Assembly (NCBI GenBank): GCA_023251675.1
Contig: JAHEYJ010000017.1
Span: 1 to 34,663 of the forward strand
From: Bacteroidota bacterium
GTDB taxonomy: Bacteria; Bacteroidota; Bacteroidia; Palsa-948
DNA: 34,663 nt
Reading direction: 5' to 3'
The notes under the pieces were generated by a model. It was not told where the DNA came from and did not search any database. It saw only the letters and a list, made by a program, of their open reading frames with translations. The number at the start of each line of letters is the position of its first letter. Within the stretch, counting starts at the first letter, position 1. The translations under genes were made by a program, and so were the position numbers. Below are positions 1 to 25,100 of this stretch, in pieces.

Positions 1-462
1 TTTTTCATACTGGCCGATACGTTGTCAATTGTAGGAAAGCTCTCGTTGCTCCTTTCGGCGCTAACCTGTTTGATTTACTTTATTAAGAGAAGAATAGCCG
101 TTCGGCAGCTCTCGGTTATCTTCCCGACCTGGGCCTGCGGTTTTACATCGGTCAACACCCGGATGCAGTATACGGGAAAATCCTTTTCTAAATCACTTGC
201 GAAACTATTCAGCTTTATAACGACGGAAGAAAAAAAATACCGTGAGCTTGACACCAACGTCATTTTTCCTGAACCACGGGCGTATCGTTCTCATTACCTG
301 GAGTTTTTTGAGAAAACATTTTTTGACCGTATCAATAACAGGGTCATTGGGTTTTTTAATTATTTTACCTTTATTCATAACGGAAAAATACAGATGTATG
401 TTTTGTACGGATTTTTTTTTATTGTTGCATTGATTGTAGCCACATTTTTTAACCTCTTGTAA
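1..462 (+). CDS. hyfB: HyfB/NuoL-like antiporter subunit, C-terminal fragment (5' end outside window)
   Basis: The reading frame is open from base 1 and ends at TAA 460-462, so about 153 C-terminal residues of a larger membrane protein are visible. They hold one membrane segment, a cytoplasmic stretch with the motif PTWACGF and MQYTGKSF, and a final membrane segment after NGKIQMYVLYG. The same order of motifs (PTWGCGY, FQYTANSF, NGNPQFYILYG) closes the next gene, so the two are paralogues in tandem. HyfB/HycC proteins carry this kind of TWxCGY...MQYT tail after the proton-pumping helices. The next gene begins one base after the stop, which indicates cotranscription and coupled translation. 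The pumping core itself lies outside the window. The assignment rests on the tail similarity and gene context. Confidence 0.8.
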   Translation, partial: FFILADTLSIVGKLSLLLSALTCLIYFIKRRIAVRQLSVIFPTWACGFTSVNTRMQYTGKSFSKSLAKLFSFITTEEKKYRELDTNVIFPEPRAYRSHYLEFFEKTFFDRINNRVIGFFNYFTFIHNGKIQMYVLYGFFFIVALIVATFFNLL

Positions 463-463
463 A

Positions 464-2500
464 TTGAGTTTGAGCCTGGACATCATCGTCATTACAATTA
501 TCTTCATCCTCCTGACCGTGGCGGTAAAAGAAGGATGGAAAGGAAGTAGTGCCCTTTTAGCCGTACTGATCAATGCAGGGATCAGCTCCTATGTGGCAAT
601 TAAGGTCATTACGGGCCAGCCTTATCAGGAACTATTTCACGGCAGTTCTGTGTTCGGCGAGGTGCCGGTCCGGATCGATGCTTTATCCGCCTGGTTTATC
701 CTGGTAATGAATTTTACAATGCTTACCGGGATATTGTATGGAAGGCAATACATGAAGCAGTATGAAAAACAATCCGACGGGTCTCAACGGAGCAATCTTA
801 CGCTTCATTTTGTAAGTTATATCGGCATTCACTTTGCCATGATCGGAATCTACTGTGTGCAGAATTCCCTGGCTTTCCTTTGTGTCTGGGAAATGATGGC
901 CATCTGTTCCTTCCTGCTTGTCATTTTTGAACATCAGAAGATGGAAACCCTCAAAGCAGGCATTTACTATTTGGTGCAGTCTCACATCGGAATTGTTTTT
1001 TTTATGCTAGGATTTATCTGGGTGAGTTCCCAAACCGGATCGTATGATTTTAATGCCATCGGCCAATACAGCGCATCCGTTACACCGGCGGTCAGCTTTA
1101 TTCTCTTTCTGTGTTTCTTTATCTCATTTGCCATTAAAGCCGGGTTTGTTCCTTTTCATACATGGCTTCCGTATGCACATCCGGCAGCGCCCTCGCATGT
1201 ATCCGGCGTGATGTCGGGTGTTATCATCAAGCTTGGAATTTTTGGAATCCTCAGAATGTTGCTGCTGATAAAAGGAAATTATATCCTGATGGGCTATACC
1301 ATTCTTATTATATCCGTAATTTCCGGAGTATACGGTGTGATGCTGGCAATCGTTCAGCACAACGTAAAAAGACTATTGGCCTATCACAGCATAGAAAATA
1401 TCGGGATCATTGGTATGGGCATCGGGCTCGGTACCATTGGGCTCGGATCAAGTAATTCTTATCTGGCTTTTGCCGGTTTTGCCGGCGCCTTACTGCATAC
1501 GCTCAATCATTCTCTTTTCAAATCTCTTTTATTTTACTGTGCCGGAACAATTTATCAAGCCACCCACACGATGGATATAGAGCGGCTCGGAGGGTTGATA
1601 AAAAAAATGCCCCAGACAGCAATTTTGTTTTTGATCGCCGCGTTGGCCATCTGCGGCCTGCCTCCGTTCAATGGTTTCATCTCTGAATTTCTTATTTATT
1701 CAGGTTTGTTCAATGGGATCGATTCAAATCATCTGACGGTATCCCTGATCATGATTTTTTCCGTTTTTGGTTTGGTTCTCATTGGCGGACTGGCAATGCT
1801 TTGTTTTACGAAAGCATTCGGGATAATTTTTTTGGGAAAGGAACGCCTGCCGTATCATCTGCCTATACACGATGCAGGGGTATTCCAGCTCTTTCCAAAA
1901 TATTTAATTGCATTAATCATTATGGCCATTGGAGTGATGCCGCAATTATTCATTCGTGTGATCGCAAAACCTGTCGGGCTTTTCACGGGTCAAACAATAA
2001 TTAATTCTCAGGGTATGGAATTCACATCCCTGCTTCAAACGGTCAGCATGGCTGTGTGTGGATTTATTCTTCTTGCGCTCATTGTTTTATGGATACGTAA
2101 AACAGCCGTTGCTTCAAAAAACAAAGTAGTGGCTCCCACATGGGGTTGCGGCTATGGCGTTCCTTCATCTGCATTTCAATATACAGCCAACTCGTTTGTC
2201 CGTTCCTACCGGAAATTAGTGAAACCCATCTTGATGATGAATAAAAAAGAAAATGGGATGGAAGGTGTATTCCCCAATCCTGTTTTGTCCGCAACCCATC
2301 CGTACGACAAACTGGAAGCTGTTTTTATTGATATCCCGATAAAACACCTGAGAGCATTTATGGGAAGATTTAAATTTCTGCAAAACGGAAATCCGCAATT
2401 TTACATTTTGTATGGGGTTATTTTTATTTTTGCTGTCATTACTTTTCCGTTGGTGATAGATGCTGTAACGTATGTAATTGAACTTTTTAAACAGCTGTGA
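464..2500 (+). CDS. hyfB: HyfB-like proton-translocating antiporter subunit
   Basis: This 678-residue polytopic membrane protein is related to HyfB of hydrogenase-4 and NuoL/NuoM of complex I, and should form an ion-pumping arm. Pump residues are in place: a glutamate in CVWEMMAICSF (near residue 143), a lysine in AIKAGFVPFHTWLP (near 224), a lysine in NVKRLLAYHSIENIG (near 300), the histidines of LLHTLNHSLFKSLLF, and a glutamate in FISEFLIY. The C-terminal 150 residues repeat the tail of the preceding gene. No ATG lies near the start. The first in-frame start is TTG 464 (a second TTG is at 470), one base after the upstream stop, and the first internal Met is 80 residues in, so a TTG start is the reasonable choice. 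It is separated by one base from hyfC downstream. Confidence 0.92.
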   Translation: MSLSLDIIVITIIFILLTVAVKEGWKGSSALLAVLINAGISSYVAIKVITGQPYQELFHGSSVFGEVPVRIDALSAWFILVMNFTMLTGILYGRQYMKQYEKQSDGSQRSNLTLHFVSYIGIHFAMIGIYCVQNSLAFLCVWEMMAICSFLLVIFEHQKMETLKAGIYYLVQSHIGIVFFMLGFIWVSSQTGSYDFNAIGQYSASVTPAVSFILFLCFFISFAIKAGFVPFHTWLPYAHPAAPSHVSGVMSGVIIKLGIFGILRMLLLIKGNYILMGYTILIISVISGVYGVMLAIVQHNVKRLLAYHSIENIGIIGMGIGLGTIGLGSSNSYLAFAGFAGALLHTLNHSLFKSLLFYCAGTIYQATHTMDIERLGGLIKKMPQTAILFLIAALAICGLPPFNGFISEFLIYSGLFNGIDSNHLTVSLIMIFSVFGLVLIGGLAMLCFTKAFGIIFLGKERLPYHLPIHDAGVFQLFPKYLIALIIMAIGVMPQLFIRVIAKPVGLFTGQTIINSQGMEFTSLLQTVSMAVCGFILLALIVLWIRKTAVASKNKVVAPTWGCGYGVPSSAFQYTANSFVRSYRKLVKPILMMNKKENGMEGVFPNPVLSATHPYDKLEAVFIDIPIKHLRAFMGRFKFLQNGNPQFYILYGVIFIFAVITFPLVIDAVTYVIELFKQL

Positions 2501-2501
2501 A

Positions 2502-3416
2502 ATGAGGATACTGAGTTTACTTCTGATAATCGCTTCCAGTTTGTTTTTTACGGGGATCGTGATCCGTACCAAAAGTATTTTTTCCGGAAGAAAGGGGCCG
2601 GGTATTTTTCAGCCCCTGAAGGATGTGTGGAGGTTATTCAGAAAAGGAGCTGTATACAGCGAAACTAGCAGTTTTATTTTTCAGATCGCTCCCAGTATTT
2701 ATTTCGCTTCCGTGCTGATGGCGATCCTGTTTATTCCTTTCGGCGAGTTCCCGGGCGTGATTTCTTTTAATGGTGATTTTGTCTTTTTTGCCTACGTGCT
2801 TGCACTTGGAAAGTTCTTCAGCATCCTTTCCGCCCTGGATACGGGCAGCAGCTTTGGAGGAATGGGAGCGAGCCGGGAAGCGCTTTATTCGTTATTGGTG
2901 GAGCCCGCGTTTTTTATTTTGATGGGTTCATTCGCACTGCTCACCGGGCATACATCCTTCCATGAAATATTTAATGCGCTCCATTTCGGCTCCTACATAT
3001 CCTACGCAATCGGCACACTGGCCGCCTTCCTGCTGGTGATTATTGCCATGATTGAGAACAGCCGGATGCCGGTTGATGATCCGAAAACGCATCTTGAATT
3101 GACCATGATACATGAAGTGATGATCCTTGACAACAGCGGGTTTGATCTCGGATTGATCCTGTATGCGACCAACCTCAAGTTTGCCATGTACGGCGCCATC
3201 ATTGCCAATCTGTTTTTTACCCCCGGGCATGAATTGTATTATTCCATTCCTATTTTTATGGGGATCCAGGTTTTGTTCGCCGGGGTGGTCGGAGGAATTG
3301 AATCGTTTATGGCAAGGTTCAGAATGAATCATAATCCCCAGTTTATTTTCACGCTGACTTCTATTTCACTGCTGATATTTTTAGGTGTGTTGCTGATGCT
3401 GGGAAAAATCATTTAA
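2502..3416 (+). CDS. hyfC: HyfC/NuoH-like membrane anchor subunit
   Basis: A 304-residue membrane protein of the NuoH/HyfC/EchB family, the subunit that joins the peripheral electron-transfer arm to the pumping subunits. Visible family signatures are GRKGPGIFQPLKDVWRLFRK (residues about 30-50), the loop GMGASREALYSLLVEPAF, and the acidic cytoplasmic loop MIENSRMPVDDPKTHLELTM followed by IHE, which carries the conserved glutamates thought to lie on the quinone/ion path. The frame extends upstream to TTG 2478, but ATG 2502 one base after the hyfB stop gives the normal N-terminus and is preferred. It is followed by hyfE after 19 bases. Length is normal for the family. Confidence 0.93.
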   Translation: MRILSLLLIIASSLFFTGIVIRTKSIFSGRKGPGIFQPLKDVWRLFRKGAVYSETSSFIFQIAPSIYFASVLMAILFIPFGEFPGVISFNGDFVFFAYVLALGKFFSILSALDTGSSFGGMGASREALYSLLVEPAFFILMGSFALLTGHTSFHEIFNALHFGSYISYAIGTLAAFLLVIIAMIENSRMPVDDPKTHLELTMIHEVMILDNSGFDLGLILYATNLKFAMYGAIIANLFFTPGHELYYSIPIFMGIQVLFAGVVGGIESFMARFRMNHNPQFIFTLTSISLLIFLGVLLMLGKII

Positions 3417-3435
3417 TTATTATAAGGTAACAACT

Positions 3436-4065
3436 ATGGCCAATATTCTTCTGATCACTTTCCTGATAAGCCTCATTTATATCGGTGTGGCAAAGCGGCT
3501 TTATACGTACATAACGCTGCTTGCCTTCCAGGGAATTGTACTGTTTGGAGTAGCCTTCATTGAGTTGATAGAAATAAATACGATCAACCTGATTTTTATT
3601 TTATTTGAAACCATCGTGTTTAAAACCATCGCCATTCCATTGTTTCTGAATTACACCATTAATAAGAACAACATTACACGTGAAGCGGAGCCTTTCCTTC
3701 CTAATTTCATTTCGGTGGTGATTATCACCATTATCATTCTGGGATCATTCCTGCTGTCGAATACCATACACGATCAGCACCTTCAGAAAATATTTTTCAT
3801 TGTTGCCGTATCTGCCTTGTTTACCGGGCTTTTCATCATCGCAACCCGCAGAAAGATCATCACGCATGTAATGGGGTTCCTGGTAATTGAAAACGGCGTA
3901 TTTATCCTGTCGCTCGCGGTAGGAAATGAAATGCCAATGCTGGTCAATATTGGAATCCTGCTTGATATTTTTGTCGGGGTCCTTCTGCTCGGCATTTTTG
4001 TAAACAAGATCGGGGATGTTTTAAAAGAGCAGGATGTTGAACAATTGAGAAAATTAAGGGATTGA
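3436..4065 (+). CDS. hyfE: HyfE-like small membrane subunit (NuoK-related)
   Basis: A 209-residue hydrophobic protein with about six or seven membrane helices, matching HyfE of hydrogenase-4, whose core resembles NuoK/MrpC. The stretch VMGFLVIENGVFILSLAVG (around residues 145-165) is the NuoK-like segment with the membrane-buried glutamate, and MLVNIGILLDIFVGVLLLGI is the next helix. An earlier glutamate pair, FIELIEINTINLIF, is also typical. Position between hyfC and hyfF is the standard order in HyfB-C-E-F-G-I clusters. ATG 3436 is the only sensible start. The C-terminus is charged and cytoplasmic (DVLKEQDVEQLRKLRD). Confidence 0.88.
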   Translation: MANILLITFLISLIYIGVAKRLYTYITLLAFQGIVLFGVAFIELIEINTINLIFILFETIVFKTIAIPLFLNYTINKNNITREAEPFLPNFISVVIITIIILGSFLLSNTIHDQHLQKIFFIVAVSALFTGLFIIATRRKIITHVMGFLVIENGVFILSLAVGNEMPMLVNIGILLDIFVGVLLLGIFVNKIGDVLKEQDVEQLRKLRD

Positions 4066-4100
4066 TAAAAAGATTTTGAGAATTTGAAAATGAAAAAGTT

Positions 4101-5528
4101 ATGATCGGAGCCTATTTACTCGGTGCATTTGTTTTTAGTTTGTTATTATTTCTAAATAGAAATAAGTTATTGAATTACCTGCTGGTGGCCGGATTCCTTG
4201 TACTGCAATGGGTGTTCACCGTCTATGAATACAATCATTTAAATACCGAAGAGCTTGGGTATTTTATTCCCGATTCTCTTGCCGTCATCTTTCTGATCGT
4301 ATTAAGCATTGTTGCCGTTCCGGCGTTTTATCACAGTTATATTTATTTCAAGCACAATCGTGATATTCCCCGTGAACGCGCCATTTATCATGCCGCCATG
4401 GTTGTATTGATCGCGGCACTGAGTGCGGCCTATTTGTCAAGCCATATCGGCATCACCTGGATCTTTGTTGAACTGACCACCCTGAGCGCCACCGCGCTCA
4501 TCTATCACCGGAGAAATTTGCGCACGCTGGAAGGAACCTGGAAATATATTTTTGTCTGCTCCATCAGCATTACGCTGGTGTTCATTGGAATCCTTTTCCT
4601 CACTCTTGCATTGCAGGAGGAAGGACTGAAAAATCTTTCTTACCAGGCATTGATGAATAAAGCTTCGGTGCTGAACGTATTTTGGCTCAAACTGGCATTC
4701 CTGTTCATCTTCACAGGTTACACTTCTAAAGCCGGATTGGTCCCGATGTACACTGCCGGCATTGATGCAAAAGATAAAGCGCCTTCTCCGGCCGGAGCGC
4801 TCATTGGCAGTGTGCTGATGAACGTAGGCTTCTTCGGCATCTTTCGTTTTTATGAGATCATCAGCCACACTTCCATCTTCAATTGGGCCAACAAGATCAT
4901 GCTTATCTCCGGGGCGCTTTCTGTTTTTGTGGCTACCGTGTATATGCTTCGCGTGAAAAATATTAAACGCATGCTGGCCTATTCGGGTGTAGAGCATATG
5001 GGATTGGTTGTACTCGGACTTGCCTGCGGAGGCATTGGCCGGTATGCGGCGATCCTGCACCTGGTACTTCATTCATTCGCAAAGCCAACCTTATTTTTTC
5101 AAATCGGCCAGGTGTACCGGGTGTATCAAAGTAAAAACATTTATAATATCGGGAATTATTTCAAGTACAATATTACCGGGGCATTGGTACTGCTGTTTGC
5201 CTATTTCATTGTCACCGCCATGCCTCCGTCCGGGATGTTTATCAGTGAGTTCCTGATCTTCCGCGCTATGTTCGAATCCGGAAATACCTGGCTGTTAGTT
5301 GTTATTTTACTGCTGCTGACTCTCATTATCTGGTCGTTCGGGAAAACTATTTTTAAAATGCTGTTTACCAGGCCGATTGGTTTTAATGAAGAGAATGTTG
5401 AAAAGATCCCTGTGGTTGAATCGCTCAGCCAGTTTATTCTTTTGGCGATGGTGATTTACCTTGGACTTAATCCTCCTTCCGAATTTATTAACCTGATCAA
5501 CACAGCGATCAGTAATTTACCTCTTTGA
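4101..5528 (+). CDS. hyfF: HyfF-like proton-translocating antiporter subunit (NuoM/N-like)
   Basis: A 475-residue polytopic protein of the NuoL/M/N-Mrp antiporter family and the third antiporter-like subunit of this cluster. Pump residues are kept: Glu in WIFVELTTLSATALI, Lys in YTSKAGLVPMYTAG, the motif DAKDKAPSPAGALIGSVLMN, Lys in KNIKRMLAYSGVEHMG, His in LHLVLHSFAKPTLFF and Glu in FISEFLIFRAMF. Unlike the HyfB-type genes it has no long C-terminal tail. The stop (5526-5528) lies two bases before the hyfG ATG at 5531, so translation is probably coupled. A 35-base gap separates it from hyfE. Confidence 0.92.
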   Translation: MIGAYLLGAFVFSLLLFLNRNKLLNYLLVAGFLVLQWVFTVYEYNHLNTEELGYFIPDSLAVIFLIVLSIVAVPAFYHSYIYFKHNRDIPRERAIYHAAMVVLIAALSAAYLSSHIGITWIFVELTTLSATALIYHRRNLRTLEGTWKYIFVCSISITLVFIGILFLTLALQEEGLKNLSYQALMNKASVLNVFWLKLAFLFIFTGYTSKAGLVPMYTAGIDAKDKAPSPAGALIGSVLMNVGFFGIFRFYEIISHTSIFNWANKIMLISGALSVFVATVYMLRVKNIKRMLAYSGVEHMGLVVLGLACGGIGRYAAILHLVLHSFAKPTLFFQIGQVYRVYQSKNIYNIGNYFKYNITGALVLLFAYFIVTAMPPSGMFISEFLIFRAMFESGNTWLLVVILLLLTLIIWSFGKTIFKMLFTRPIGFNEENVEKIPVVESLSQFILLAMVIYLGLNPPSEFINLINTAISNLPL

Positions 5529-5530
5529 GC

Positions 5531-7051
5531 ATGGAAAACTACATTCGTATAAAAAATAACCAATCCGTTCCGCTTCAGGCCATTCCTGTATTGACGTACG
5601 AAGATTTCCTGGAGCAAAATACGGGGTTCATGCTGAATGAGGCGAATCATTGTGTTAATTATTATGGAGTTCCTCAGGGAGATAAACTGCAACTCATTTG
5701 TTGTATGGCAAATGACGTTGAACATGTCATTTATGTTTCCTCTTCTCTTATAGAAAAGCAGGCGGATCTGCCTTCTTTCACTGCGCGCCATCTTGCCTTT
5801 CACATTTTCGAAAGAGAGATTCATGAGAACTTCGGAGTGGGATACATCGACCATCCGTGGCTGAAACCGGTGCGCTATCCCTTTGATCGTACGGAGAAGG
5901 GATCTCAAATAAAGAATTATCCATTTTATAAGATAGAAAGTGAAGAACTGCACGAAGTCGGTGTTGGGCCGATTCATGCCGGGATCATTGAACCCGGTCA
6001 TTTTCGTTTCATTTGCAACGGCGAACAGATCCTGCATCTTGAAATTCAACTGGGCTACCAGCACAGGGGAATAGAAAAATTATTTTTAGATAATAAAAAA
6101 AACCTCCAGCGCGCTTCCCTTGCAGAATCCATAGCCGGAGATTCGGTGGCCGGCCATGCTGTCGCTTTTACAAACCTGTGGGAAAGCCTGTGCGGCTATA
6201 ATGCGGGAGCAGCGCTGCAATTTACCCGGACACTTGCACTGGAGTTAGAACGCATTGCCGTGCATACCGGGGATTTAAGCGCTATCTGCACCGACATCGC
6301 CTACCAATTGGGCAGTTCTGTATTCGGAAGATTAAGGACGCCTCTCATTAATTATTTCCAGATATGGTGCGGGAACCGACTGGCAAAGGGATTGATCAGG
6401 GCCGGAAAAAATAATTTTCATTTTACAAACGAATTGCGTGAACAGTTGCTGCAATTATTTGATGCGTATGAACCTGATTTCATTGAAATGTATAACGAGC
6501 TGAAAAGGCTGCCAAGCGCGTTGTCTCGACTGGAAAAAACAGGCATCATATCAAAAGAATTATCCGAAGAGATCGGGACGGTTGGGATGTCCGCCCGGGC
6601 GTCCGGTATCAACAGGGATGTGCGCTTTTCTCATCCGCACGATTTGTATTCCCGGCTGGATCATGAACCGGCTATCAAACATCATGGAGATGTTTATTCG
6701 CGCACCCAGATCCGCAAGGAAGAAATCCTGCAATCCATAGGATACATCAGGGAATTAATTCAGGCCATTCCTCACTCCGATTCCCAGATTCTGAAACGGG
6801 GAAACGAAGAGCGGGAGATAGGGGAGGTGGGGAGGGGACTTTTTGCAATTTCCTTAGTGGAAGGATGGAGGGGAGAGATTTGCCATTGTGCCATCACGAA
6901 TGAAAAAGGGGATCTGCAGCATTATAAAATAAAAGATCCCTCATTGCACAACTGGATGGCGCTGGCCTTGGCTGTACGCAATAATGAGATCTCTGATTTT
7001 CCAATATGTAATAAAAGTTTCAACTTATCTTATTGCGGCCATGATTTATAA
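5531..7051 (+). CDS. hyfG: HyfG-like large subunit (NuoC-NuoD fusion), NiFe ligands lost
   Basis: A 506-residue fusion of an N-terminal NuoC/30-kDa-like domain (about residues 1-130, with FHIFEREIHENFGVGYIDHP) and a NuoD/[NiFe]-hydrogenase large-subunit domain (about 140-506). It has the family landmark GYQHRGIEK (His178). The first NiFe motif, normally RxCGxC, reads ESIAGDSVAGH with Ala202 and Ser205 replacing both cysteines. The second, normally DPCxxC, reads SFNLSYCGHDL at the very C-terminus, with Asn498 and Tyr501 at the ligand positions and a single displaced Cys502. No NiFe centre can be bound, so it is a catalytically different subunit, as in Ehr complexes and complex I. The start could be TTG 5525, but ATG 5531 is preferred. 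Confidence 0.92.
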   Translation: MENYIRIKNNQSVPLQAIPVLTYEDFLEQNTGFMLNEANHCVNYYGVPQGDKLQLICCMANDVEHVIYVSSSLIEKQADLPSFTARHLAFHIFEREIHENFGVGYIDHPWLKPVRYPFDRTEKGSQIKNYPFYKIESEELHEVGVGPIHAGIIEPGHFRFICNGEQILHLEIQLGYQHRGIEKLFLDNKKNLQRASLAESIAGDSVAGHAVAFTNLWESLCGYNAGAALQFTRTLALELERIAVHTGDLSAICTDIAYQLGSSVFGRLRTPLINYFQIWCGNRLAKGLIRAGKNNFHFTNELREQLLQLFDAYEPDFIEMYNELKRLPSALSRLEKTGIISKELSEEIGTVGMSARASGINRDVRFSHPHDLYSRLDHEPAIKHHGDVYSRTQIRKEEILQSIGYIRELIQAIPHSDSQILKRGNEEREIGEVGRGLFAISLVEGWRGEICHCAITNEKGDLQHYKIKDPSLHNWMALALAVRNNEISDFPICNKSFNLSYCGHDL

Positions 7052-7062
7052 AAGAAATTACT

Positions 7063-7815
7063 ATGCTTGACAATGTGAAGATCCTGATTCATCAGGGAAA
7101 GCAATACATTCCTGATGTTAAGAACGCTGAGTTGCCCGGCGTTTTCAGAGGGAGGCCGGTTATCTCTAAGGAACAGGTGGATGAAAAGAGGTTATCTGAA
7201 CTTTGTCCGACTGGAGCCATTGCCTTCCATCCGATCCGCCTTGATCTGGGGAAATGTACTTTCTGTGGCGAGTGTGCTTTTGCTTTTCCCGGAAAAATAA
7301 AATTTACCAAAGATTACAAAATAGCGACAAACTATCGTGAAGGGTTAATTATTTCAGAAGGCGAAGAACAACTTATCGCGCTGAATCCTGAACTGATCCG
7401 AAAAGAGATCTCGAACTATTTCAGCGGATCATTAAAGTTAAGACAGGTTTCAGCGGGAGGCGACAATAGCTGCGAACTAGAGCTCAATGCCTGCGGGAAT
7501 GTGAATTTTGATATGGGAAGGTTCGGAATTGAATTTGTTGCATCGCCCCGTCATGCCGATGGGATTGTAATCACCGGCCCAATCACTGAAAATATGGCTG
7601 AACCGCTGCAGATCTGTTACGATGCCATCCCTGAACCGAAGATCATCATCCTCACCGGCACGGATGCGATCAGCGGAGGGATTTTTCAAAAAAGTAATGC
7701 CCTCAAACGGGGTTTTCTGGAAAAATATAAAATTGATCTGTATGTTCCAGGCAATCCTGTTCATCCACTCACCTTTATCAATGGCGTTTTGGACCTGATA
7801 CGGATCAGAAAATAA
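7063..7815 (+). CDS. hyfI: HyfI-like small subunit: ferredoxin-NuoB fusion with most cluster ligands lost
   Basis: A 250-residue fusion. Residues about 40-85 form a ferredoxin-like domain, and about 120-250 a NuoB/HyfI-like domain with FGIEFVASPRHADGIVITGP and GGIF. The ferredoxin part keeps four cysteines (Cys48 in LCPTGAI, then Cys65, Cys68 and Cys71 in CTFCGECAFAFP). That is exactly one [4Fe-4S] ligand set, while the set for the other cluster is gone (Phe75 replaces the last Cys). In the NuoB part, three of the four N2-type ligands are replaced: Asp134 and Cys137 stand for CxxC, Asp201 for the third and Asn231 (VPGNP) for the fourth. The proximal cluster is therefore probably absent. It is the last gene of the complex, 11 bases after hyfG. 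Confidence 0.88.
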   Translation: MLDNVKILIHQGKQYIPDVKNAELPGVFRGRPVISKEQVDEKRLSELCPTGAIAFHPIRLDLGKCTFCGECAFAFPGKIKFTKDYKIATNYREGLIISEGEEQLIALNPELIRKEISNYFSGSLKLRQVSAGGDNSCELELNACGNVNFDMGRFGIEFVASPRHADGIVITGPITENMAEPLQICYDAIPEPKIIILTGTDAISGGIFQKSNALKRGFLEKYKIDLYVPGNPVHPLTFINGVLDLIRIRK

Positions 7816-7857: not shown

Positions 7858-7865
7858 TATTTTTG
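7858..7865 (+). promoter_or_regulatory. Bacteroidota -7 promoter element upstream of the reductase
   Basis: TATTTTTG matches the Bacteroidota housekeeping -7 consensus TAnnTTTG exactly, 12 bases before ATG 7878. No clear TTTG-type -33 box is seen at the right distance. The leader would be only a few bases long. The match suggests that the reductase can be transcribed independently of the Hyf/Ehr-like cluster. Confidence 0.4.
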
Positions 7866-7877
7866 CGAACTAATTCT

Positions 7878-8942
7878 ATGGTACAATTTCATAAACTAAA
7901 AGTATCCAATGTTCGTAAAGAAACGGCAGACTGTGTTTCTATTGCTTTTGAAGTACCGGATTCTTTGAAATCGGAATATGTTTTCATCCAGGGGCAGTAC
8001 CTTACTTTAAAGCTCTTCGTTAAGGGTGAAGAGATCCGGAGAAGCTATTCTATCTGCAGTTCGCCTTTTGAGAATGAATTGCGGATCGCTATCAAGCGGG
8101 TAAAAGAGGGAAAGGGTTCACGATACATTAATGATGTTCTCAATCCCGGTGATGTGCTGGAGGTGATGACCCCGATGGGGAATTTTCACTCGCCGCTGAA
8201 GTCGTCGCATAAAAAGAACTATGTATTTTTCGCCGGGGGAAGCGGGATCACACCCGTTTTCTCGATCATTAAATCGGTTCTTCAGGCAGAGCCGGATTCT
8301 AGCATGATCCTGTTCTTTGGAAACTTCAGCGAAGAGAACACGATTTTCAAGACAAAGCTGGATGAACTGGCCCAAAGCAACTCTTCCCGGTTGAAATTGC
8401 ATTACGTATTTGAAAAACCTGCTTCTCCGATCGATGAACTTTACAAAGGAATTATTTCCAAAGAAAAAACTGAAGCGCTTTTTGAAAAGCATATTTCTTC
8501 TGCAGCGGACAACGAATTTTTTATCTGCGGGCCAAAACCCATGATGGATAACGTTCGGGAGACCCTGGAAAAAAAGAATACCGGCAGTGCTCGGATTCAT
8601 GTGGAGTATTTTACTTCAGCAGTGGATGCTCCGGAAAAAACCATTTCACCTTCCCAGAAGGTAAATGCAATGGTAACGGTGGTTCAGTACGGAATTGAAA
8701 CCAAATTTGAACTATCTTCAGATGGGAAACCCATATTGGACGCAGCCATTGAAGCCGGAGTAGATGCTCCGTTCGCCTGCAAGGGCGCCGTTTGCGCCAC
8801 CTGCCGCGGCAAAGTACTGGAAGGAAAAGTACATATGAACAAGAACTTTGCACTTACCGATGCGGAAGTGGCTGAAGGATTCATTCTCACCTGCCAGAGC
8901 CATCCGCTTTCACTTACGGTGAAAGTTGACTACGATGTATAA
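7878..8942 (+). CDS. paaE: PaaE-type NAD(P)H oxidoreductase: FAD / NAD / [2Fe-2S] ferredoxin
   Basis: A 354-residue three-domain electron-transfer flavoprotein, family of PaaE (phenylacetyl-CoA epoxygenase reductase) and class IA reductases. Order: FAD-binding barrel with RSYSICSSP (about residues 60-70), NAD(P)-binding domain with AGGSGITPVFS and FICGPKPMM, then a C-terminal plant-type [2Fe-2S] ferredoxin with Cys301-x4-Cys306-x2-Cys309 and Cys339. All cofactor motifs are intact. The frame reaches TTG 7863, but ATG 7878 is chosen. No phenylacetate pathway genes are present, so the partner is not PaaA-D here. It lies 62 bases downstream of the hyfI-like gene on the same strand, and could supply electrons to that complex or to a lipid or aromatic oxygenase elsewhere. 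The name is by family, not by pathway. Confidence 0.85.
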   Translation: MVQFHKLKVSNVRKETADCVSIAFEVPDSLKSEYVFIQGQYLTLKLFVKGEEIRRSYSICSSPFENELRIAIKRVKEGKGSRYINDVLNPGDVLEVMTPMGNFHSPLKSSHKKNYVFFAGGSGITPVFSIIKSVLQAEPDSSMILFFGNFSEENTIFKTKLDELAQSNSSRLKLHYVFEKPASPIDELYKGIISKEKTEALFEKHISSAADNEFFICGPKPMMDNVRETLEKKNTGSARIHVEYFTSAVDAPEKTISPSQKVNAMVTVVQYGIETKFELSSDGKPILDAAIEAGVDAPFACKGAVCATCRGKVLEGKVHMNKNFALTDAEVAEGFILTCQSHPLSLTVKVDYDV

Positions 8943-8986: not shown

Positions 8987-10000
8987 TCATTGTTTATTCC
9001 GATGGATCAACAGCAGAGTAGTAGCAAAAAGCAAGAACGCCCCGGTCTGGTGCAGAACTGCAATGGTGATCGGTACGGTATAAAGCAGCGTGATCACTCC
9101 CAATGTGAATTGAGCTGAAATAATTATTGCCAATACATCTATAATTTTTCTTTGACCGTTTGCGACGGGAAATTTCCGCGACCGGTAGAAAAGAAATCCT
9201 ACAAGTGCAACAAGTACATAAGCAATGTACCGGTGAACGAACTGAACGCCGGCGTGCCCTTCCAGAAAATTTCTCCAAATAGGTTCAAGCGAAGTGATGT
9301 CGGATGGAAACCATTCGCTGCCCATTTTCGGCCAGGTAGGGTAGGCGTAGCCGGCCTTAAGCCCCGCAACAAAAGCTCCGTAAATGATTTGCAGAATGAT
9401 GACCGAGAAAAGGAGTATGGAAAGTTTTTTTACTCCCCTCTCCTTTGGGAGAGGGGTAGGGGGTGAGGCGACATCCAGCGCATACCAGAAAGTAAATCCG
9501 AAAACGGTAAACGCACTGATCAGATGTATGGCAAGCCGGTAATGACTTACATACACATTTTCAGATAATCCACTGCTGACCATGAACCAGCCAATGAATC
9601 CCTGTAAACCCCCGAGTGCAAAAAGGACCAGCGCTTTTTTCATAAATCCTTCCGGGAATTTTTTCTTCCACCAAAACCAAAAGAAAGGAATGAGAAAAAC
9701 GAATCCGATGATTCTTCCGATCAGGCGGTGAAGGTATTCCCAGAAAAATATTTTCTTGAAATCGGAAAGTTGAAAATCGGAGTTGAGAAGTTTGTATTGC
9801 GGGATTTGCTTGTACGCATCAAATTCTTTTTCCCATGCTTCTTGTGAAAGGGGAGGAATGGTGCCGGTGACGATCTTCCATTCGGTAATTGATAATCCGG
9901 AACCGGTAAGCCGGGTGATCCCGCCAATGACAACCATCGCATAAATAAGAAAACAGCCTGAAAGAAGCCATATTATCACCGGCCGGAACGGGTTTTTCAT
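8987..10000 (-). CDS. ctaA: heme A synthase (CtaA/Cox15)
   Basis: A 337-residue membrane protein with eight predicted helices that oxidises the C8 methyl of heme O to make heme A for aa3-type cytochrome oxidases. Conserved features are GGITRLTGSGLSITEWK near the N-terminus, the heme-ligand histidine motifs EYLHRLIGR, SHYRLAIHL, FVHRYIAY and VLHQTGAF, and GLKAGYAYPTWPKM in the middle loop. The protein carries an unusual insert, ASPPTPLPKERG, in the cytoplasmic loop between the two four-helix halves. It is encoded by a palindromic repeat (9431-9468). The insert keeps the frame and avoids membrane helices, so the enzyme is probably functional. No other oxidase assembly genes are adjacent. Confidence 0.93.
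   Translation of the reverse strand: MKNPFRPVIIWLLSGCFLIYAMVVIGGITRLTGSGLSITEWKIVTGTIPPLSQEAWEKEFDAYKQIPQYKLLNSDFQLSDFKKIFFWEYLHRLIGRIIGFVFLIPFFWFWWKKKFPEGFMKKALVLFALGGLQGFIGWFMVSSGLSENVYVSHYRLAIHLISAFTVFGFTFWYALDVASPPTPLPKERGVKKLSILLFSVIILQIIYGAFVAGLKAGYAYPTWPKMGSEWFPSDITSLEPIWRNFLEGHAGVQFVHRYIAYVLVALVGFLFYRSRKFPVANGQRKIIDVLAIIISAQFTLGVITLLYTVPITIAVLHQTGAFLLFATTLLLIHRNKQ
9431..9468. repeat. palindromic repeat inserted in frame within ctaA
   Basis: The core is CCCCTCTCC (9435-9443), loop TTTG, then GGAGAGGGG (9448-9456), a perfect 9-bp hairpin flanked by a further G-rich arm (GTAGGGGGTGAGG). On the ctaA strand it encodes PPTPLPKERG, a peptide with no place in heme A synthases. The GC-rich composition differs from its surroundings. 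This matches a kind of short, non-autonomous palindromic element seen in Bacteroidota genomes both between and inside genes. Confidence 0.75.
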
Positions 10001-13310: not shown

Positions 13311-14300
13311 TTATTCTTTCGGTTTATCTTTCGACTGTGGCTTGCTGATGGATTCGCGCATTTGCGTGTCAGCTTGTATGTTTTGCATTTTGTAATAATC
13401 CATGATGCCGAGGTTTCCGCTTCGGAACGATTCTGCCATGGCAAGCGGGATCTGCGCTTCGGCTTCAATAACTTTTGCGCGTGCTTCCTGTGCTTTTGCT
13501 TTCATCTCTTGTTCGCTGGCAACAGCCATCGCCCGGCGCTCTTCCGCTTTTGCCTGCGCTACTTTAAGGTCGGCGCTTGCCTGTTCCGTCTGAAGTTTCG
13601 CACCGATGTTTTCTCCTACGTCAATATCAGCAATGTCAATGGAAAGAATTTCAAATGCAGTTCCTGCATCCAGGCCTTTTGCAAGAACGGTTTTAGAGAT
13701 CGTATCCGGATTTTCCAGAACCGATTTATGATCGTGCGCCGAACCGATGCTGGTAACGATACCTTCACCGACACGGGCGAGAATGGTTTCTTCACCGGCG
13801 CCGCCAACGAGTTGATTGATATTGGTTCTAACCGTAACTCTCGCCTTTACCAATAACTGGATCCCGTTCTTTGCTACTGCAGAAACCGGGGGAGTATCAA
13901 TAACGCGCGGATTAACTGAAAGCTGAACGGCATCAAATACATCGCGCCCTGCAAGGTCGATCGCAGTAGCCAGTTTGAAGTTGAGTGGAATGTTGGCCTT
14001 CTCCGCAGAGATGAGTGCGTTCACCACCGATTGCACGTGGCCGCCTGCCATGAAGTGCGCTTCCAGCTGGTCGCGGGAAAGAATAAGCCCTGCTTTGTGC
14101 CCGTTGATGAGTGCATTCACAATTACGCCCGGAGGAACTTTTCTGAAACGCATCAGTGCCAGCTGAATGAGCGACATTCTTACTCCTGAAAGCTGTGCGG
14201 TTACCCACAGGCCGACGGGCAGAATTCTGAAGAATATCCAAAGAAAGATCAATCCTCCTAATCCGAGGAGAGCGTAAACGAGAACTTGTTCGGGTTGCAT
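13311..14300 (-). CDS. floA: flotillin-like protein FloA
   Basis: A 329-residue FloA (YqfA family) membrane scaffold protein of functional membrane microdomains. An N-terminal hydrophobic hairpin ([20 protein letters not shown], residues about 7-27) anchors it to the membrane. It is followed by a PHB/SPFH-like domain ([58 protein letters not shown]) and a C-terminal Ala/Glu-rich coiled coil (residues about 230-300, [20 protein letters not shown]) for oligomerisation. Length equals the family norm. It lies 84 bases after nfeD, its usual partner, in the order nfeD-floA. FloA assemblies gather membrane proteins and influence proteolysis and secretion. Confidence 0.96.
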
Positions 14301-14384
14301 GGTATTTTATTTAAAGTTTATTGTATAAAATTCAGAATGCGAATATACAAATGTCTGCTTACGAAGGGAATGAGGAAAAAAAGG

Positions 14385-14849
14385 TTATTCCGACAGTACA
14401 ACAAAGATCTTGTTGTGCTGGATCTTTTCTACTTTTATTTCTTTGTCCTGGTCAATAAATCCATTCGTTGCCTGAACTTCAACCTGGATATTATTTATAA
14501 AAGCTTTCCCCATCGGATTGAGCCGTGAAATAGACTTGCCCGAATCGCCAATTTTTACTACATCTTCTGCATGGATGTTTGCTTTTCCGTCCATGGAGGA
14601 TTGTACCTGCATTTTTTTCCATATAGCGGAATTAAAAGCCCAGTATACGGCCGCAGCCGTGGCGGCTCCCGTAGCGACAAGGACAATAAACCCGGTACCG
14701 GTTCCATAATTCCGGAATGAAAAAATAATTCCGATGATCATCAGTATGACGGAAATAAAGCCGAGCACCATTCCAGGGACAAATAATATCTCAAGCATCA
14801 GGAGAAAAATTCCTATTAATAGGAGAAGGATGATCGAAATGATACTCAT
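14385..14849 (-). CDS. short NfeD-family membrane protein
   Basis: A 154-residue NfeD-like protein. Three membrane helices occupy about residues 4-80 (IILLLLIGIFLLMLEILFVPG, then two more). An OB-fold-like C-terminal domain follows, with GKSISRLNPMGKAFINN and a VEVQATNGFIDQDKEIKVEK strand pair typical of NfeD (G-x-A...G-x-I-x-x-G pattern). The long protease-containing form is not seen; this is the short partner form that accompanies flotillins. Its ATG overlaps the stop of the peptidase gene by four bases (ATGA), and floA follows. Confidence 0.88.
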   Translation of the reverse strand: MSIISIILLLLIGIFLLMLEILFVPGMVLGFISVILMIIGIIFSFRNYGTGTGFIVLVATGAATAAAVYWAFNSAIWKKMQVQSSMDGKANIHAEDVVKIGDSGKSISRLNPMGKAFINNIQVEVQATNGFIDQDKEIKVEKIQHNKIFVVLSE

Positions 14850-15652
14850 GGTTGTGAGGGATGATAATATTTCATGGCTTTGGGAAGGAACGCTTTTATT
14901 TCTTCAATCCGTTTGTCATCGCTTGGATGCGTGCTGAGAATGGCCATGTTACTTCCTTTAGATGCTTTTGCCATGCGTTCCCAAAAGGCAACTGCTTCGG
15001 TTGGATTATATCCTGCCATTGCCATAAATACCAAACCCAGTTTATCTGCTTCCAATTCATGCTTGCGTGAATAGGCGAGAACACCCAATCCTGAAACGGC
15101 GCCATACGACTGGTTAAATAAATCCTTAGAGACAGATGATTGTGAGGAAACGGCAACAGATAAAATGGCGCCTCCGGTTTGAACTGCCATTGCCTGGCTC
15201 ATGCGTTCATTGCCATGGCGGGCAATGGCATGGGCGATCTCATGTCCCATCACTACGGCCAGCGCCGTTTCATTTTGAGTAACGGGAAGCAACCCTGAAT
15301 AAACGACCACTTTTCCTCCCGGCATACACCAGGCATTTACGGTTTTATCATCATTCACTAAATTAAACTGCCAGTTATAACCTTCGATCCTCTTTTTATA
15401 TTTTTTGTTTGCGCTCATGAATTTTTCTACTGCAGTTTTAATGTTGCCGCCTACTTTTTTTACCAGAACCGTATTGGGGTCAGAATCGGGCATGGGATGA
15501 TTTTCTCCCAGGAATTTATTGTATTCTGCCAGGCTCATTTTCATCAGGTCGCTTTCCGGTAAAAGGTTCATCTGCCTGCGGCCGGTAATGGGCACGCGTG
15601 TACAGGAGAGAAAGAAAACAACCAGAAAAAAGTATAAAAGGATTTTTTTCAT
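14846..15652 (-). CDS. M48-family metallopeptidase lipoprotein
   Basis: A 268-residue zinc peptidase related to LoiP/BepA and Oma1-type M48 proteases, which degrade or refold damaged envelope proteins. A lipoprotein signal ends at Cys17 (VVFFLSC), so it is membrane-attached in the periplasm. The zinc site is HEIAH (His137, Glu138, His141), with Glu199 in HELEAD as third ligand. MPGGKVVVYSGLL before the helix is the standard M48 strand. No membrane domain of HtpX type is present. The frame starts at TTG 15661, but ATG 15652 gives a clean signal peptide. It overlaps nfeD by four bases and follows clpS by 17. Confidence 0.93.
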   Translation of the reverse strand: MKKILLYFFLVVFFLSCTRVPITGRRQMNLLPESDLMKMSLAEYNKFLGENHPMPDSDPNTVLVKKVGGNIKTAVEKFMSANKKYKKRIEGYNWQFNLVNDDKTVNAWCMPGGKVVVYSGLLPVTQNETALAVVMGHEIAHAIARHGNERMSQAMAVQTGGAILSVAVSSQSSVSKDLFNQSYGAVSGLGVLAYSRKHELEADKLGLVFMAMAGYNPTEAVAFWERMAKASKGSNMAILSTHPSDDKRIEEIKAFLPKAMKYYHPSQP

Positions 15653-15669
15653 ATAAATCAAATGTTCAT

Positions 15670-22133: not shown

Positions 22134-25100
22134 CTATTCTTCACTTCCCTTAAACTTGCGCTGGAATAGATTTTTCTGTTGTTCCGATCCAATGGAAAAT
22201 TGGTAAGGGGTCTGTCCTCTTTCTGTTTTGAGTTCCTTTTTATCGTTCTTCAGATCCTGTATGGCTTTATTGAAATTCTGGTCAGAGGAAACCGCTGTAA
22301 GCAAGCCTTTTGTATAACGGAAATAATACCAGTTGTTTTTATCTACTTCAATATAAATATCAAGTATATCTCCTGTACGTTTTTTCCAAAGGGCGATCTT
22401 TCCATCTACCATCTTATTTACCTGTGTTTTGCGGATGGTTCCTATTCCGATTCCGCCGGAAGAAACATAAGCATTGTTCTTATCATCCCATTGCATATTA
22501 ACTTGTGTCAGGAACAAGGTATGTTCCAGTTCATCGGGAAATTTTTTGAATTTGCCGTAGAGGTTTACTTCGGCAATCAGTTTGTCCGCTTTTTCTTTCC
22601 CCATCAGTTCACGCAACCCTCTTTCGTAATTGGAACCTACGACAACGCCTGAAAGGGCTTCGGTGGAAGAAATGAGGTCGGCCATTTTATCAATTGCTGA
22701 ATTGTCAAAGAAGAAATCAAGCGCCATCATCAGTTCAAATCGTGCAGAATCAGTAAGTAAATTATGGAAGACGCTTCCAACTGCATCCACTTTTACCTGG
22801 CCCAGGTCCATCCCAAGTGATCCCATCCTTCCGTTGCCTGAAATGGTGCATGCATCCGATTTGAGGGACAGGTAATTCCCGGTAAGTGCTGGCTCGTTGA
22901 GCTTTTCTTTGGATGAAATCCGGTATTCTTTTGTTGGCTTGTCATAGTAAATGAATCCCGTTGCCCGTAAAACCTCTTTATCTGTTTTTCGGATCTGTTT
23001 GGTCAGAAAGGCAGTATAAATTCCACTTGTATCCGAAGCGACCATAATTCCTGAATTGAGGTCTTTGTCTTTTTCGTCTTCCAGTTTTTCAGTTACAGGG
23101 ATAAGAATTTTTTCCGGGTTGATCTGGGAAGTGAATTTAAACCAGGTCTTTCCTTCTCCCAACGCCGCGCACGTATGCGTGATCTTTGAAGTGCCGCTGA
23201 AAGTCAGAAACTGATCGTTGGAAGCAAGAAAAACTTTTCCTTTAAATGCATAATTGGGACTCAGCATAAAATTAGTAGTGTCTTTTATATCCGCATCAGC
23301 AATGGTTTGGAAAGTTGTATCCACTTTTATGTTCGTGAAATAGATCGGTTGTTTGTTTTTCATCTCATCGGTGTAATCATAATAACCTGAAGCGGCATAG
23401 CTTTTTTTGCCGAAAATGTTTGTGTTGGCTTTATAGATTGTATGATAAGCGGTAATACTGTTGGCCACTATTTTCGAATTGCTTAATGTTCTCATTTCAG
23501 CGTCTTTCAGGATGGTTACTTTTCCGCTGTCGGGATATACTTTTGCATCCGCCACATTTATCCAGGCAACATCCTGGGCGCTGATAATATATTTTTTGAA
23601 ATCAAATTTAGCTTTCGGTGCATTGAACCGCAATGAATCCTGCTTGGGATTGGTAGAGATGAATTCAGGGCCTGAGAGTTCAAGCAATCTGTCATCCTTT
23701 GGTTTTCCGGCATCACGGGAGGAAAGTTCAATATCGCCTTTGTCCATATACCATTTGAAATTATCCATATAGCAGATATACTGGTTGACAGGAAATTCCA
23801 CAACCGATCCTTTACCGTTGGCTGCAAAATCTCCGGTTCTTTTTTCGAAATCTACAATTGCATTTACATTTTTTGTAGAAAAAGCAAATTTTGAATTTTC
23901 CAATGCCTTTAAGCTGAATGATGCCGTATCGGATAACACTTTTTTATTATGAAACTTCATGAGATCGGCCGACATGGAGGCCCCGGAAAAATCCAGTTTT
24001 CCGTTTCCGGTCATTGCTTTTGAAGAGTAATCAACCCGGCCTTTCATCGTTGCCTGCCCGCCATACATTTCAAGCGGTTTTATCAATGAAAATACCTGCA
24101 TGATATCTTTCTTCGGAGACCAATGAACATAAATGGTATCTCCTTTAACAGGCGGGTATTCTACTTTTCCGCCCTTTTGTTCTTTGACTTCAAATGTTTG
24201 TGCAGTTCCATTTACAGAATCCGGAAAAAATATCAAGTCTTTTGAAGAAAGTGTTGATGTGATGTAATTAATGGTTCCGTCACCTCGCAAACCTTCATTG
24301 CTCAACCGGACTTTATTATTGAATTTGCCGGAATTGCCGTAAGATGCAAAACCTCCGGTGGGAGTAGGCCGGATGAATCCAAGTGAATAATCAGGCTGCA
24401 CCGAAAGGGTGTCTTTGAAGTCCGGAAAAATTCCGGCTGAAGTGAGTTGCCCTTTAAATCGTACACTTTCAGTACTGAAATTATCCAGGCTGTCTAAAAT
24501 ATAGGGATCAATCTTAAAATAGAATTTATCTCTTCTGTAAACCCCTTTTTGAATTGCCCGTTTATCATAATAAACGAATGATTCTTTTGCAGAGGAGAAT
24601 ATGGGATATTGTGTCAGCCGCTTTCTTCCTGATTTGTTTCCGGGTTGATCGATCTGGATTTCACCCTGTATCTGTTCAATAACGGATTTGACTTTAATAT
24701 CGGGATAATTTCCAAGCGCATCGGCTGTAAATCTTCTCACCGTAAACATTAAGGAATCTGCATTGTTGATGTCAATCTTGAATTTATCATAATTGAAAAA
24801 ATAATCTTTTCCGAAATAAACAAAACGTCCTGCCTGTACAACTCCTCCAAAAAAGAAATCCCTGTTTTTCTTGAGAACCACTTGATGCCGGGTCTGGTAG
24901 ATAGTCACATTTTGTGAATCGCTGATCGCAATTTGAGATACCCCATTAATTCGTAAGTCATAATTCAACAGATTAAGCACTGCATTCACTTCACCTCCCT
25001 TTACATTAGAATTAATGACAATAACATCATAATCGGTTGTACCCATTTTGGCTTTAAGATAGGTGAACAGTCTTTCCTGCAGTATGATCTTATCGTCTTT

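Follow-up and report, generated by a model that had tools for sequence, protein, structure and literature searches.

Energy-converting-hydrogenase-related (Ehr) complexes have been defined as Hyf-like assemblies whose large subunit lacks the residues that coordinate the nickel-iron (NiFe) center (PMC6349859, PMC10284858). Other described members of the same wider kinship include the sulfane reductase MBS of Pyrococcus furiosus, in which two cysteines of the NiFe site are kept and a three-cysteine proximal cluster is the proposed catalytic site (PMC7684303), and DAB2, in which a NuoL-like subunit is coupled to the non-redox hydration of CO2 (PMC13144422). Here, we analyze a cluster of seven Hyf genes, all on the forward strand at positions 1-7815 of a 34,663-nucleotide stretch of DNA from a Bacteroidota bacterium (contig JAHEYJ010000017.1, C190 among our contigs). 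This stretch, hereafter "the window", is an entire contig of a 3.4 Mb genome with a completeness of 96%. Judged by its sequence, the encoded complex has no NiFe site, no proximal (N2-type) [4Fe-4S] cluster and no outer cluster, with a single medial-type [4Fe-4S] cluster left. The explanation that we tentatively favor is an Ehr-type ion-translocating machine that may have ceased to depend on electrons arriving at the old active-site cavity. A literature search of partial coverage yielded no description of a complex I-superfamily member that has lost N2, so that a prior description is possible.

A large subunit without a NiFe site

The row of genes from a partial HyfB1 over HyfB2, HyfC, HyfE, HyfF and HyfG to HyfI (Table 1) had been recognized in a preliminary description made from the letters alone and was borne out, as was its view that the complex is Ehr-like, built on the plan of hydrogenase-4 and devoid of a NiFe site. 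The best matches among solved structures were formate hydrogenlyase (HycE, HycG, HycC and HycD) and the membrane-bound hydrogenase MBH. When HyfG (residues counted from the TTG start at 5525) was aligned to E. coli HyfG and HycE, the four positions of the NiFe cysteines were found to be occupied by A204, S207, S502 and G505. The preliminary description, which counted from an ATG two codons after the TTG, had named the first pair correctly as Ala202/Ser205, whereas its second pair, Asn498/Tyr501, lay two columns off and is properly Ser500/Gly503 in that numbering. Its conclusion that no CxxC motif is present is unchanged by this correction, and the CxxC motif of the NiFe site is absent from the HyfG of every family member examined.

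Further hallmarks of a hydrogenase are missing as well. HyfG has the C-terminus ...NKSFNLSYCGHDL and stops at ...SYCGHDL, while E. coli HyfG runs about 32 residues further with a maturation-cleaved extension that is absent here. The maturation genes whose presence next to the cluster would have spoken for a hydrogenase were represented in our search by HypA (PF01155) and HypD (PF01924), neither of which was found in the genome. With every tested catalytic hallmark of [NiFe] hydrogenases failing, the cluster is judged not to encode a hydrogenase and qualifies as an Ehr by the published definition.

The surroundings of the old metal site are nevertheless strongly conserved among relatives at E201, G205, D206, H211, N496-K497-S498, S502, Y503, G505 and D507, and those other than the two glycines are invariant in HyfG. 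Where Thermus Nqo4 has its quinone ligands His38 and Tyr87, HyfG has I155 and G205, and a quinone site of the complex I type is therefore not indicated. An AlphaFold model of HyfG reached a predicted local distance difference test score (pLDDT) of 78, and fold searches with it only confirmed the family.

A small subunit without proximal and outer clusters

The preliminary description had overlooked that HyfI joins a ferredoxin domain to a NuoB-like domain and that three of the four cysteines of its proximal cluster are lost: the ligand positions of this N2-type [4Fe-4S] cluster in the NuoB-like part are D134, C137, D201 and N231. The outer cluster is predicted to be absent because F75 replaces the fourth canonical cysteine of ferredoxin motif II. 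The sole complete [4Fe-4S] set of the ferredoxin domain consists of C48 from the first motif together with C65, C68 and C71 from the second, and we take it to be the inner, N6b-like cluster by comparison with Nqo9 of complex I.

The replacements at the proximal site are shared by 86 N2-less copies from Bacteroidota (84 of them distinct, since L036 and L083 are the same contig, as are L037 and L098). The four ligand positions read DCDN in 83 copies, DNDN in two and DSDD in one, with D134 and D201 being invariant throughout, and carriers of the two aspartates include isolates, namely Niastella vici, Flavihumibacter profundi, Chryseolinea serpens and Arcticibacter. Our list of relatives holds the best 80 of 321 and is hence biased toward close ones; the conservation of D134 and D201 is not an effect of the search because the loci were found with patterns from other parts of the protein. 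R181 of the HRGxE motif (QHRGIE) is also retained and invariant. Its counterpart in complex I stabilizes N2 (PMC8042128), and in the window's HyfI it may now pair with the aspartates D134 and D201. For HyfI, the AlphaFold model had a modest pLDDT of 69, and fold searches again only confirmed the family.

Phylogeny and separate losses of N2

The tree was built on the large subunit and does not draw on the trait under study, the loss of N2 in the small subunit; it set HyfG against E. coli HyfG and HycE and against NiFe-less Hyf-like proteins other than those published as Ehr. HyfG grouped with other NiFe-less Hyf-like proteins and outside E. coli HyfG and HycE (100/100), and the placement among true [NiFe] hydrogenases that would have refuted the preliminary description was thus not observed. 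The closest relatives belong to NiFe-less Hyf-like clusters of Bacteroidota, Variovorax, Rhizobium and Azospirillum. Besides the cluster closest to the window, plasmid 3 of Variovorax sp. PBL-E5 has a second one (L153:18562-25746) that is Ehr-like but different and lies a few kb away.

The N2-less Bacteroidota formed one clade (99/96) that is nested in N2-intact, NiFe-less Ehr-like relatives, with L056 as its nearest N2-intact sister. Members of Flavobacteriales, Chitinophagales, Bacteroidales and Cytophagales are intermingled in this clade, and the gene cluster is patchy within the window's own genus (among six congeners searched, two have it), a pattern suggestive of horizontal spread or of repeated loss. 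Clusters without N2 were also found outside Bacteroidota. Allomeiothermus silvanus encodes two copies of an Ehr-like cluster on pMESIL01 (L155:12001-14150 and L158:8658-10807) that have lost all four proximal-cluster cysteines and show T, D, E and S at the ligand positions, and an N2-less Ehr-like cluster on a plasmid of Mycobacterium branderi shows N, D, D and A. A single grouping of all N2-less rows was rejected by the approximately unbiased (AU) test (p-AU 2e-52), as was a grouping of Bacteroidota with Allomeiothermus silvanus (p-AU 2e-10), with the caution that these N2-less rows are long-branched. On this phylogeny, N2 is judged to have been lost separately at least three times, in Bacteroidota, Allomeiothermus and Mycobacterium.

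Common to all three losses is an acidic residue at ligand 1 or 2 and another at ligand 3. The outer ferredoxin cluster is also gone in all three groups, and it is already lost in three Bacteroidota relatives that keep N2 (L059, L061 and L062); the electron relay therefore seems to have been eroded from the outside inwards.

The main rival to our explanation is that the complex is still a redox pump, in which another metal (e.g., mononuclear iron or an Asp-ligated cluster) at D134/C137/D201/N231 keeps an electron path to the cavity and a substrate is reduced or oxidized there. Such a metal would find metal-capable residues at all four old ligand positions and an invariant [4Fe-4S] cluster adjacent to it, and the three-cysteine proximal cluster proposed as the catalytic site of MBS (PMC7684303) offers a precedent. 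We nevertheless consider this rival rather unlikely, as the separate losses with T,D,E,S and N,D,D,A contain no cysteine and are arranged otherwise, which is better fitted by a replacement of charge, the outer electron-entry cluster is missing in all three groups, and no gene for a donor partner recurs.

Membrane arm and selection

The claim of the preliminary description that the pumping residues are intact holds for HyfB2, HyfC, HyfE and HyfF: charged membrane residues common to the HyfB, HyfC, HyfE and HyfF proteins of E. coli are conserved in 69-110 family members, in nearly all copies. On this residue conservation, the complex is a candidate for ion translocation. The same intact antiporter-like subunits and acidic path through HyfC would also suit a redox-gated channel or antiporter, in which the lone [4Fe-4S] cluster, the only invariant cofactor set left, senses redox state or oxygen and gates H+/Na+ flow via HyfB/HyfF, while nothing is turned over in the cavity. 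A hydrophilic arm is dispensable for antiport in the Mrp family. The evolutionary link to Mrp antiporters has been discussed (PMC7684303). A pure gate would, however, have no need of the highly conserved HyfG cavity, and we regard it as improbable.

The N2-less state is maintained by strong purifying selection and is not decaying. The ratio of nonsynonymous to synonymous substitution rates (dN/dS) between close pairs was 0.02-0.17 for HyfG, HyfI, HyfC and HyfF. Systematic differences between N2-less and N2-intact relatives were confined to D134, S136, D201 and N231 in HyfI and to S139 in HyfG, and the cavity residues of HyfG and acidic residues of HyfC are common to both groups; the complex, as far as its sequences tell, was otherwise left unchanged while the N2 cluster was removed. 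The loss of ligands taken alone does resemble decay, yet it is hardly conceivable that the cluster is a relic in decay, or a hydrogenase distorted by errors of sequencing or assembly, and the conservation data refute this: the replacements are invariant in 84 distinct copies that include isolates, dN/dS is low, the reading frames of the cluster are intact, and HypA and HypD are absent.

Gene row and genomic neighbors

HyfA, HyfD and HyfJ are not part of the cluster (Table 1), and canonical Nuo genes are separately encoded elsewhere in the same genome. The missing 5' part of HyfB1 was searched for in the rest of the assembly and not found; full-length counterparts in relatives (e.g., L106 and L078) have around 665 aa, and many genomes of relatives encode two HyfB proteins of about this size each while others encode one.

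Table 1. Coordinates of the Hyf genes in the window and of former and remaining iron-sulfur ligand sites in HyfI.
Feature	Position	Strand	Remarks
HyfB1, antiporter-like subunit, C-terminal 153 aa	1..462	+	remainder lost at contig start; NF006418 E 3.8e-14
HyfB2, antiporter-like ion-translocating subunit	464..2500	+	E143, K225, K256, H345/H349, K353 conserved in 110/110 copies
HyfC (NuoH-like), links arm and membrane	2478..3416	+	E134, E142, E193, D200, E207, E213 invariant, 69 copies
HyfE (NuoK-like)	3436..4065	+	E152 invariant, 69 copies
HyfF, antiporter-like subunit	4101..5528	+	E124, K210, K289, K328 conserved in 70/70
HyfG, large subunit without NiFe ligands and without maturation extension	5525..7051	+	
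HyfI, ferredoxin domain fused to NuoB-like domain	7063..7815	+	
HyfI ferredoxin motif II, C65-TFCGECAFA-F75	7255..7287	+	fourth canonical Cys replaced by F75
HyfI D134-N-S-C137	7462..7473	+	old CxxC of proximal cluster
HyfI D201 codon	7663..7665	+	old third proximal-cluster Cys
HyfI N231 codon	7753..7755	+	old fourth proximal-cluster Cys

Across 85 loci compared, only the core genes are widely shared, and no redox-partner gene recurs adjacent to them. A PaaE-like flavin/2Fe-2S reductase (FNR) encoded downstream of the cluster (7863-8942) was considered as a redox partner and rejected, as it adjoins the cluster only in one genus (the window, L034 and L035) and belongs to phenylacetate degradation, given that paaABCD flanks the other side of the Hyf genes in L034 and L035; the Hyf cluster appears to be inserted into a phenylacetyl-CoA epoxidase locus. 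The preliminary description had also pointed to heme A synthesis. The heme A synthase gene is real (8987-10000, opposite strand); it is not a conserved neighbor, however, and is therefore uninformative about the complex.

Other contexts were found around relatives. A helix-turn-helix regulator with an EIIA domain (HTH-EIIA; PTS_EIIA_2) precedes the Ehr-like clusters of N2-intact Bacteroidota (L057, L058, L059, L061, L062, L065 and L066), SulP anion transporters adjoin several of these relatives (L057, L058 and L065), and a SulP-STAS-EIIA fusion lies between the large- and small-subunit genes in L064 (6939-9137). We rejected SulP and EIIA as partners of the window's complex because they were seen only in N2-intact relatives. 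The SulP family includes bicarbonate carriers, and its proximity to these relatives, along with the DAB2 precedent (PMC13144422), could be read by analogy as a sign of CO2 hydration or bicarbonate handling, in which the old NiFe cavity would be the hydration site and the membrane arm would couple it to proton flow. We hold this to be quite improbable: SulP is not adjacent to the N2-less clade, DabA (PF10070) was searched for in the window's genome and not found, and no carbonic-anhydrase-like ligand set was recognized in the HyfG cavity.

On plasmids of Burkholderia multivorans (L161), Caballeronia sp. (L159) and Mycobacterium branderi (L160), Ehr-like clusters lie amid fluoride riboswitches (RF01734) and are accompanied by genes for crcB, enolase, pyrophosphatase and DUF190 proteins. 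Formate hydrogenlyase is listed by a 2024 review among the commonest fluoride-riboswitch genes (PMC11139923). The large subunits of these three plasmid clusters lack the NiFe CxxC motifs, and the "formate hydrogenlyase" of fluoride regulons may at least partly be Ehr. A fluoride regulon was rejected for the N2-less Bacteroidota clade, as RF01734 was found neither in any Bacteroidota locus searched nor in the window's genome. Taken together, the contexts of relatives (fluoride loci, EIIA regulators and SulP) fit ion or pH stress.

Elsewhere in the window, genes for a FloA flotillin, an NfeD-like protein and an M48 peptidase stand in a row (13311-15661); next to the Ehr cluster of Rhizobium in L156 there is likewise a slipin/NfeD pair, probably by coincidence. 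An open reading frame of 1496 aa (22134-26624) had no Pfam match at E 1e-5.

Possible coupling without electrons

In the mechanism that we tentatively favor, the complex would move H+ (or Na+) across the membrane or gate their flow, and electrons would not reach the old cavity at a useful rate because the lone remaining cluster lies a full relay step too far away. The carboxylate pair Asp134/Asp201 would stand in for the charge of about -2 of an oxidized (Cys)4[4Fe-4S] cluster; since two carboxylates match this charge, the pair may keep the electrostatics expected by the interface, and it possibly carries protons in place of electrons. The coupling event could be a non-redox reaction at the cavity (E201/D206/H211/N496-K497-S498/S502-Y503/D507), or else binding or protonation there, and the remaining [4Fe-4S] cluster might serve as a redox sensor or structural element. 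Given that the cavity is conserved alike in N2-intact and N2-less members, its function would then need no electrons from N2. The likely physiological role would be ion or pH homeostasis and not respiration. The preliminary description had proposed an ion pump driven by a redox or conformational reaction, of which the redox part is now doubtful with the proximal and outer clusters gone and no recurring redox partner.

Several observations weigh against this mechanism. A four-cysteine [4Fe-4S] set that is invariant in every copy would be odd without any remaining redox chemistry, C137 is kept in 83 of the 86 Bacteroidota copies, and a relay could be re-established by a metal bound at the D/C/D/N positions. 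The spatial pairing of D134 and D201 is assumed from homology, and it is relatives, not the N2-less Bacteroidota themselves, that show the fluoride and SulP/EIIA contexts.

For complex I, it has long been asked in what way the transfer of electrons near N2 powers the pumping of ions in the distant membrane arm. A natural relative that has the cavity, the acidic path of HyfC and the antiporter subunits but carries carboxylates in place of N2 would separate coupling from electron transfer, and an N2-less Ehr complex makes the question directly testable by expression. It is conceivable, and we put it forward with reserve, that the complex I superfamily includes ion-translocating machines without electron transfer to the coupling cavity, in which a pair of carboxylates took the place of N2 on at least three separate occasions with the rest of the coupling apparatus unchanged, and that a non-redox event can thus power the coupling of cavity to membrane. 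Ehr complexes may not be redox enzymes in all branches.

Comparison with known systems

Hydrogenase-4 and formate hydrogenlyase (HyfA-J and HycB-G) have homologous B, C, E, F, G and I genes in the same order as the window's cluster, but the latter lacks the NiFe cysteines, the C-terminal extension, HypA/HypD, HyfA/HyfD/HyfJ and the proximal cluster. Respiratory complex I has homologous subunits (NuoB/NuoD), and the HRGxE motif near N2 is kept, whereas N2 itself, the NADH module and the quinone His/Tyr are missing from the window's complex. Published Ehr complexes resemble it in their Hyf/Ech-like subunits, antiporter-like membrane arm and a large subunit without NiFe ligands, and they differ from it in that the proximal cluster and the outer ferredoxin cluster are additionally gone from the window's complex. 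MBS has likewise lost its NiFe site, kept the membrane arm and repurposed the hydrophilic arm (PMC7684303), though the window's complex goes further with none of the NiFe cysteines and just one of the four proximal ones. DAB2 (DabA/DabB) is unlike the window's complex with its seven subunits and complex I-like architecture, and serves as a working analogy in which a NuoL-family subunit is part of a non-redox coupled complex.

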